Positions 21,568 to 24,989 of a stretch of DNA of 64,000 nt are shown one piece after another. The DNA lies in assembly GCF_030463535.1 (NCBI RefSeq), contig NC_132901.1, positions 7,039,364 to 7,103,363 on the forward strand, read 5' to 3'. This DNA comes from Salminus brasiliensis. Taxonomy: Eukaryota; Chordata; Actinopteri; Characiformes; Bryconidae. The translations under genes were made by a program, and so were the position numbers. The notes under the pieces were generated by a model. That model searched no databases. It saw nothing but the letters and a program-made list of their open reading frames with translations, and was not told where the DNA came from. Position 1 is the first letter of the stretch. Each line of letters starts with the position of its first letter.

Positions 21568-24103
21568 ATGAAGACCATTCTCAGTACCCAGACGGTGGAC
21601 ATCCCCGACAAAGGTATGTAAAGCGTCCATGTGTATCTGACTAGGAGCTGTGTTCACAAAGCATACCAGTGCTGATATAGAATTTGCTTTTATTCAGAGA
21701 TGTGAATAGAGGAATCTCTAATTAGTAGTTTACTCCAGTCCGACTACCATGCCTTCCTTGTTAATGTAATGTTCTTTTGCTGGTTTATATTTATACATTC
21801 TCATCATGTGTCCTGCAGTTGATGTGTCCCTGAAGGGCCGCACCATAACCGTGAAGGGCCCTCGCGGAACTCTTCGCCGGGAGTTCAACCACATTAACCT
21901 GGAGCTCCGTCTGCTCGGCAAGAAGCAGAAGAAGGTAAGGGGCCTTTATGCTGCTCTTACAGGTGATCTGGATTGGGATGGTCCCTTGAATTCAGAGTGC
22001 AAGTGTTCTTTAGATATGTGTTGTGCTTATGTAGCTGAATGTGTTCTCCTGTGTAGCTGCGTGTGGACAAATGGTGGGGTAACAGGAAGGAGCTGGCCAC
22101 TGTCAGAACAATTTGCAGCCACGTTCAGAACATGATCAAGGGTGTAACCATGGTAAGATCATTTGGGGGTTTTATTAGTGGTATGACTAATAATTCAATG
22201 CCTGGAAAGAGTGAGAGATCTAAATTGCAAGTAGTAAGTTTATCTTTTGCCTTGTTCCTGCCTGGCAAAAATGGTTCTATTGACTTTGGGCTTTAGCATT
22301 ATCTTTGCAAACGTCTACTTTTCATTGTGGTAAAACGTGTAAAATACATCAATAGAAACCCAGGTTTTATGCTGTTCTTAATGTCTGAAGTTTCTTTGTG
22401 TAGGGTTTCAGGTACAAGATGCGATCCGTGTATGCCCATTTCCCTATCAATGTGGTGATTCAGGAGAATGGCCAAATGGTGGAGATCAGAAACTTTCTGG
22501 GAGAGAAGTACATTCGTCGTGTCCGTATGAGGCCAGGTACTTTGTGTGCTTGCTGACAGACTTTTTGTCTGTTATTCCTGCTACATTGAAAGGTGCCTGC
22601 TGACGAGTCAATTTAGCTTATTTAGATATCAGTATCTGATTTAAAGCATGATTTGCTGTTGGAAAAATGACACACATTGGAGTTAAATGTTATTTCCAAT
22701 ACTTGTTTAGTGGAACTGAAAATCAGATGTCCTCTTTACATTAAAGAGTACATAAAGATGACTAATGTGCCTAATTGTTTGGTTTCTGACTTGCAGGTGT
22801 GAATTGTGCACTCTCTGCAGCCCAGAAAGATGAGCTTGTTCTGGAGGGTAATGATATTGAGCTGGTGTCAAACTCTGGTGAGGCTACATTTTTCTAAGAG
22901 TTTTTCTAACTTTGCCTTTTTAAGTTGTCAACATGACCCGAATAGCTACTTAATGAGAACCCGCTTAAAGACATATTCCTTCACAGGTATAGGTGGTGGT
23001 GAAACTTGCACGAAAAGGTGTAACCATTTTTGTAGTACTTGTGCCAAATCCTGAAGTGCCTTTTCTGTTTATTGCTGCTGCCATTGTTAATTTAGTGTTT
23101 AATAAGCAGATGTTCATTAAAGTATAATTGGTTCCTCTACACTACTTTTTTTTTGGTCTGAGCATAGTTTTGCAAACACAATTTAAGCTTTAAAAAAGAG
23201 GACTGGACTGACCTAACTTTCAGCCAGTATCTGCTCAGACTCCTCAACCCCTACTTAATACTTTCATGTTGGTCTCTTATAGGCCTGTGATAATTACGTA
23301 ATTAGCTTATACAATATATGGACATGACCTGTGACTTTTGGCATCCTTGATGTTGCCCCTAGTTTGTACTGGCACGTTTTTAGCCAGCTATGCTGTTCTC
23401 TCCTTCAAGTGAGCGATATCTATTGTATAGGAACACAGTGCAGTGCACGCAATCACCAGTGCATTCATAATAATGGGGACCCCATGCAGAGCGCACTGCG
23501 ACAGTACTGGTGTAAAGAATCTCTCGTCCCGTCTGTGCTGGGTGCACAATGTTTTTCAATGCTGTCTTGGTCAGCTACAGTTCCAGATTACTTTTTCTGT
23601 AAATTGGTCAAAATAATAGTGATGCATGTTCATGCATTGATATGGTTCACTTGCAGTGAAGAGTGGTCGTAAATGTGCTTTACCATGTTAGCATTTAGCA
23701 TGTTTTTGCCTTAGAATGTTTAGCATTTCAGAAGTACAATATTTGTCAAACTGTCTTTATTCTTGATGTGATACTATAGCCAAAAGCTAATGTTAATCCC
23801 AAAGTAACATATTAGCCCCTAAGCTCACATGCATTACAAAATTTGTTACAATTTTGGTGAATCACTACAGATCAATGTCCTGTGATACCCTTGATTGTGT
23901 GTAATCCTGTCAAGAATCCTTGTGTACCTACCCTTCTGACTACAGAGCCTGCTAGTGTGTGCATGCCTCTCACCACCCTAGTGTGTCTTGTTTCAGCGGC
24001 CCTCATCCAGCAGGCAACCTCAGTCAAAAATAAGGATATCAGAAAGTTCCTGGATGGTATCTATGTCTCTGAGAAGGGGACAGTAGTGGAGCCGGAGGTG
24101 TAG
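21568..24103 (+). CDS. rpl9: 60S ribosomal protein L9 (uL6), isoform using the first terminal exon, 192 aa
   Basis: Structural protein of the large ribosomal subunit. Coding exons: 21568-21613, 21819-21934, 22057-22152, 22404-22536, 22797-22877, 23997-24103. They total 579 nt, 192 aa, equal to human RPL9. The protein opens [13 protein letters not shown] and contains [55 protein letters not shown] and [13 protein letters not shown], all characteristic of the family. This terminal exon encodes [19 protein letters not shown] and ends [16 protein letters not shown] at 24396-24401 serves this version. A second copy of the terminal exon follows 780 bp downstream. Confidence 0.96.
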
Positions 24104-24395
24104 AGGACGCAAGGTTAGAGTGGGTTTCGCCAGGGCTGAAGGATGTTTTTTCATTGTCGCTTTAATCACTTTCTGGCTTTTTGTCCCCTCTGTTGAATTG
24201 CTTTCGTCTCCTTTTCTCATTGCTTCAATATTGTTTCTGACTTGTGAAATGACCTTGGATTTCTGGGCGGTGTTGTGGTTCTATAAATTTGCAAATTCTT
24301 TGTACAAGCTGTGTCTGCATGCAAAGACTAACACTAACGCTTCTTCCACTTCCAGCGGTAACACTGTTATGCCTGTTGCATGTGTGCATGTTCTA

Positions 24396-24401
24396 AATAA
24401 A
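24396..24401 (+). terminator. rpl9: Proximal rpl9 polyadenylation signal AATAAA
   Basis: Canonical hexamer about 290 nt after the stop codon of the first terminal exon, so that exon can end a transcript by itself. Confidence 0.65.
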
Positions 24402-24879
24402 AAGGCAGAACACTTTAGCTAACCATCATCCATAGACTGGTTTCTGTGCAGCAACATCAGAGCTGTGCAAGCAACTGGGGTGAAAAGTAGCACTCCAATG
24501 TTGGAGAGCAAAAATAACCCCAGAGAAGATGGATGGAAATAAAGGGGTCACATCCCTTTGCCATAATCTGTAGAAGATTAAACAAAAAATAAACAAACCA
24601 GATGGTGAACACATCTGACTCTGGAATTGTATCAAGTCAACAGGAATTTACAAACTGTGAAATCAGTGATTACAGCAATAAACGTAACATTTTGCTTTGG
24701 GCTGCTTGTGCACTTATTAATGTATAGACAGGAAACCTGTCTATAGGGATGTTTAATCTAGTCTGTGCTAGTGACCACATTTGATTTAGCTAATAAGTTA
24801 ACTCTGGTGTGTTGGCTAAGTGGAAAAGGTTGCTGCCTTGCCTCACCATTTATTGTCCTATTGCTGTTCTCTTAATCAG

Positions 24880-24989
24880 CTGCCCTGATCCAGCAGGCCA
24901 CCTCTGTCCGGAAGAAGGATATCCGGAAGTTCTTGGATGGCATTTATGTCAGTGAGAAGACCACTGTGGAGGAACAGCCGGATAATTAA
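24880..24989 (+). CDS. rpl9: Duplicated alternative terminal exon of rpl9
   Basis: A second terminal exon begins right after the acceptor TTAATCAG in the same phase as 23997-24103. It encodes [19 protein letters not shown], continues DGIYVSEK and ends TTVEEQPDN before TAA. Spliced to the exon ending at 22877 it gives a 193-aa L9. Over 30 aligned codons I count 11 synonymous and 3 amino-acid-changing codon differences from the first copy (Lys/Arg, Asn/Lys, Gly/Thr), so both copies look constrained. AATAAA at 25013-25018 lies 24 nt after the stop. It begins exactly at a splice acceptor and lacks upstream exons, so it is an exon duplication, not a retrocopy. Confidence 0.85.

Follow-up and report, generated by a model that had tools for sequence, protein, structure and literature searches.

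A duplicated last coding exon and two candidate 3′ arms in the rpl9 gene of a fish

Ribosomal protein variants are commonly studied as separate paralogous genes, and duplicated alternative last exons, each with a poly(A) site of its own, are known as a general class. The rpl9 gene analysed here, which encodes L9 (uL6), resembles that class in its two homologous 3′ arms, which are in phase and each contain a stop codon and a poly(A) signal. It differs in that it is a core ribosomal protein gene and in that one of its arms, A, probably has a separate UTR exon. RPS24 is also a ribosomal protein gene with variable 3′ ends, and its alternative exons are very small, unlike the duplicated exon of some 30 codons in rpl9. 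In passages of one account, RPS24 (eS24) is described as a single gene that gives rise to at least three splice variants, distinguished by their C-terminal residues (PMC12931454). RPL22L1b is likewise an alternatively spliced product of a ribosomal protein gene and was detected in purified ribosomes; unlike rpl9, it is an isoform of a paralog gene, and section 9 of that account makes no mention of exon duplication (PMC12931454). Two near-identical versions per genome, as predicted for rpl9, are described in the cited passages for yeast RPL9A/RPL9B (PMC6678285) and mouse Rps27/Rps27l (PMC10313321), but these are separate genes, whereas the rpl9 case concerns two exons of one gene. A liver-cancer study counts RPL9 among alternatively spliced genes, in passages that give no exon detail (PMC6923823). 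The first-pass annotation of this DNA knew of no described RPL9 case, and word searches of the open-access literature (title and start of abstract) agree with it: none of the matches listed concerns RPL9 with duplicated end exons.

Anatomy of rpl9 and its two 3′ arms

The gene lies on the plus strand of the window, that is, the whole 64-kb stretch of DNA analysed. We take the flanking translations to be LIAS, on the minus strand, and RFC1, on the plus strand; a translation still further upstream reads as UGDH. The human gene order being ugdh-lias-rpl9-rfc1, this would be a conserved neighbourhood, the neighbours here being named by reading of their translations alone. A tandem array (20353-20580; 53-nt unit, 4.3 copies, 96% matches) lies upstream of rpl9 on the lias side. 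Three further regions, 30930-32002 (minus strand), 36411-37468 (plus) and 63467-63958 (minus), contain translations in pieces, which we presume to be Tc1/mariner-type transposases. Several minus-strand translations within 46523-61204 read to us like PDZ domains, presumably from a multi-PDZ gene beyond rfc1. No Rfam family reached its gathering score in the window.

A probable non-coding first exon (21063-21096), recognised by reading the DNA, has a pyrimidine-rich, TOP-like start, whose exact point is a guess, and ends at a donor gag/gtaaga. It is followed by the exon carrying the start codon (21567-21613; ATG at 21568, coding part 21568-21613), by coding exons at 21819-21934, 22057-22152 and 22404-22536, which join in frame, and by the last shared coding exon (22797-22877), which ends at the donor ctg/gtgagg. 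AG precedes exons 2-5 and both end exons, A (coding part 23997-24103) and B (24880-24989), and GT follows each of the five shared exons. As the first-pass annotation had claimed, A and B stand behind acceptors in the same phase, and both join 22797-22877 in frame. The five shared coding exons plus A or B give two uninterrupted ORFs, encoding 192 amino acids with A (stop TAG) and 193 with B (stop TAA).

Both predicted proteins match PF00347 in two stretches (115.1 bits for A, 113.3 for B) and read as full-length uL6 with Ribosomal_L6 domains; the A protein aligns with the L9 chain of 7oya at 382.5 bits over residues 1-191. Of the structures used, we take 7oya to be from zebrafish, 5lzs from rabbit and 4v6w from fruit fly. 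The A protein (21568-24103) differs at 10 of the 188 positions at which the 7oya and 5lzs chains agree, the number unique to 7oya being 4, and rpl9 may thus be changing slightly fast in this lineage. A relaxed or pseudogene-like rpl9 was considered as a cause of these differences and set aside, the frames being intact and the excess modest.

Exon A (23997-24113) encodes the canonical C-terminal end and has its stop, TAG, at 24101-24103. Its tail, GTVVEPEV, resembles the 7oya tail GTVVEAES, and we therefore take A as the ancestral form. An AG at -17 before the exon (23980-23996) could, if used as an acceptor, add 15 in-frame bases. A probable donor, aag/gttaga, lies 10 nt past the stop, after 24113; it is weak, with T at +3, and its score against a simple consensus is 5 of 7, equalled by 3 of the 5 known rpl9 donors. 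The acceptor at 24356 is strong, with two CTAAC branch-point matches and 75% pyrimidines, and opens a probable 3′-UTR exon (24356-24415, end approximate) in which AATAAA follows 40 nt further on (24396), 293 nt beyond the A stop. Further AATAAA/ATTAAA hexamers occur between the A arm and B at 24538, 24577, 24588 and 24677. A strict acceptor scan of both strands of the 64 kb, which misses each of the six other rpl9 acceptors tested, those of A and B among them, returned 20 sites, of which 3 (24356, 9303 and 21294) have AATAAA at a distance of 20-80 nt from the exon start; the match at 21294, inside an rpl9 intron, is probably due to chance. Mammalian RPL9 has eight exons, the last one non-coding, and a UTR exon at 24356 would fit this pattern. 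The 3′-UTR exon is likely to be real, and exon A is probably penultimate, with a spliced 3′ UTR, rather than terminal.

The B arm is simpler. Exon B duplicates the coding part of A in diverged form and ends in TAA (24987-24989). Its acceptor has a 75% pyrimidine tract, and the upstream 53 nt are free of AG. A short 3′ UTR (24990-25035, end approximate) contains AATAAA at 25013, 24 nt downstream of the stop, followed by U-rich and then GU-rich DNA, and simple consensus scoring finds no donor of 5 or more beyond the stop. Judged by these signals, B is a true terminal exon. The earlier proposal of two terminal exons, each with its own stop and AATAAA, therefore stands for B. For A the stop and a signal are present, but the signal is 293 nt away, probably past an intron, and the exon itself is probably not the last. 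The same holds for the trait of duplicated alternative last exons by which each arm is terminal with its own poly(A) signal: B fits, and A probably splices to 24356 before its AATAAA.

Divergence between exons A and B

Exons A and B form a repeat of 98 nt with 79% identity, which rules out chance similarity. Over their first 30 codons we recovered the counts given before, 11 synonymous and 3 replacement codon differences, and the tails diverge after codon 30, as had also been noted (GTVVEPEV in A, TTVEEQPDN in B). The 20 nucleotide differences are split 5/3/12 over codon positions 1/2/3. When 20 differences were placed at random, 20,000 times from each copy, the number of replacement codons averaged 12.8 and 12.6 and never fell to 3 or below. 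The dN/dS comparison suggested earlier (NG86, 28 codons) gives dN 0.11 and dS 1.14.

The DNA flanking A and B aligns no better than shuffled sequence (upstream P 0.24, downstream P 0.59; 200 shuffles each), and neither does the B UTR against the A UTR, whether unspliced (P 0.45) or predicted spliced (P 0.76; 200 shuffles each). Since the exons are 79% identical and the flanks no better than shuffles, the duplication is old, with the coding exons having stayed alike amid decay, although flank decay is an imperfect yardstick that depends on how far the original duplication reached. Recent gene conversion as the source of the likeness is ruled out because 11 of 30 codons differ synonymously. Retroposition of B is unsupported, given the lack of alignment with the predicted spliced A UTR and of a poly(A) tract after the B AATAAA; the TCAG ahead of both A and B, weighed in the same context, is also acceptor consensus. 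The sequence evidence thus makes A and B the products of an old exon duplication, which as a pair have evolved as protein. As in duplicated alternative last exons, they are homologous, share their phase and have an acceptor and a stop each.

We then looked for copies elsewhere. When exon A DNA and exon B DNA were searched against their own assembly (1,066,335,885 bases, 103 contigs), each matched only itself, at its window position, which argues against B being a stray copy of some other close locus; the search is blind at the level of divergence between A and B, since B, at 79% identity and about 880 nt away, was missed by the A query, and diverged copies would escape it. By tblastn, no third decayed copy or other rpl9 exon remnant was found in the window past the known exons (next best E 0.98). 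A pattern search of viral_contigs for relatives returned no match, and one of genome_contigs returned 2 of 108 stretches, which contain distant L6 genes from MAGs and were left out.

The first-pass annotation had held that both copies appear selected as protein. Joint constraint on the pair is supported by the random placements (0 of 20,000), the pairwise test being a sum over two branches; for B by itself selection is suggestive. The replacements from A to B are K168R, N169K and G185T, and all three are assigned to the B side, since A has the same residues as the 7oya and 5lzs chains at these sites; T166S, in the same comparison, is common to A and B. With 5, 4 or 3 of the 11 synonymous changes assigned to B (numbers attained in 2758, 3569 and 3918 of 4000 runs), a neutral simulation of the B side gave 3 or fewer replacements with a probability of 0.029, 0.063 or 0.17, respectively. 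The chance of B having 3 or fewer of the 11 under equal rates is 0.11, in which case the B-side test says nothing. It is this range of P, from 0.029 to 0.17, that makes the case for B alone no more than suggestive. T185 is also present in the 4v6w L9 chain and is therefore tolerated, and the exon B peptide is more distant than the exon A peptide from all solved L9 chains (best 46.5 versus 57.0 bits).

A proposed choice between the two arms

The anatomy of the two arms, their reading frames and the conservative change between the copies can be read directly from the DNA. The use that is made of them is best accounted for, in our opinion, by a choice of 3′ end from which two nearly equivalent uL6 proteins would result, with A canonical, a reading we consider rather probable though far from secure. 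The last coding exon and its acceptor would have been duplicated at the DNA level long ago, leaving two mutually exclusive 3′ arms. The 22877-23997 junction would give canonical L9/uL6, with the 3′ UTR probably completed by the small exon at 24356 and a proximal poly(A) site. The 22877-24880 junction would bypass A and the UTR exon in favour of the distal poly(A) site, and the resulting uL6 would have R168, K169 and T185 and a different acidic tail. An internal-exon arm that uses the proximal poly(A) site would most likely compete in this way with a terminal exon lying distally. The intact frames and borders, the conservative change, the decayed flanks, the clean B acceptor, the close B AATAAA, the PF00347 matches, T185 and the single-locus DNA match all argue for this model. 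Against it we count the placement of all three replacements on the B side, a B-side P of up to 0.17 and the greater distance of the B peptide from the solved chains.

A second reading makes exon B a relic: it would have been used during part of its past and would now be spliced in seldom or not at all, so that all functional L9 comes from A. The B-side replacements, the unproven selection on B alone and a B tail unlike the L9 tails compared would all agree with a relic, but the frame, stop, clean acceptor and near poly(A) signal of B were all kept while the flanks decayed beyond alignment, and we regard this explanation as unlikely, if worth keeping in mind. It is also conceivable that B serves mainly as 3′ UTR: the donor at 24113 would join the acceptor at 24880, every transcript would code for the A protein, and B would alter only the UTR and the poly(A) site. 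A donor-like site past the A stop and a good acceptor at B would permit such splicing; yet it leaves the open frame and the mostly synonymous change in B unexplained, the acceptor at 24356 is nearer to 24113 than that at 24880, and the T at +3 of the donor is unusual. We hold it to be very improbable.

If the choice between two coding arms is accepted, it may still be asked whether the A and B isoforms differ in function, the choice setting tissue- or stage-specific ribosomes with altered behaviour at the GTPase-associated centre. uL6 sits at that centre, where it bridges the sarcin-ricin loop and uL11, according to the passages cited (PMC6678285), B is altered at residues common to A, 7oya and 5lzs, and both RPS24 and RPL22L1 have known splice isoforms (passages of PMC12931454). 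Against such specialisation, the corresponding passages on other systems report that single deletions of uL6A or uL6B in yeast gave no functional difference (PMC6678285), that the RPL9 copies of Arabidopsis are explained by dosage (PMC8647923) and that mouse Rps27 and Rps27l are interchangeable (PMC10313321). Because of these yeast, Arabidopsis and mouse results, as far as the cited passages go, we favour supply over specialised ribosomes, for which we see a slim chance. With two coding arms as the preferred reading, we infer that both are used, that A is the major one, that the proteins are near-equivalent and that the choice mainly sets 3′-end or supply control.

Possible implications for ribosome heterogeneity

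There is a small chance, in our estimate, that the gene makes two versions of a core ribosomal protein through a mutually exclusive ancient exon, and that tissues or stages tune in this way how the ribosome handles translation factors. If the two-arm model is true, a duplicated mutually exclusive exon within one gene would leave the promoter, the 5′ UTR and residues 1-157 unchanged and confine variation to roughly the last 35 residues. The locus would then offer a clean natural test of whether small differences in a ribosomal protein alter translation or merely secure its supply.
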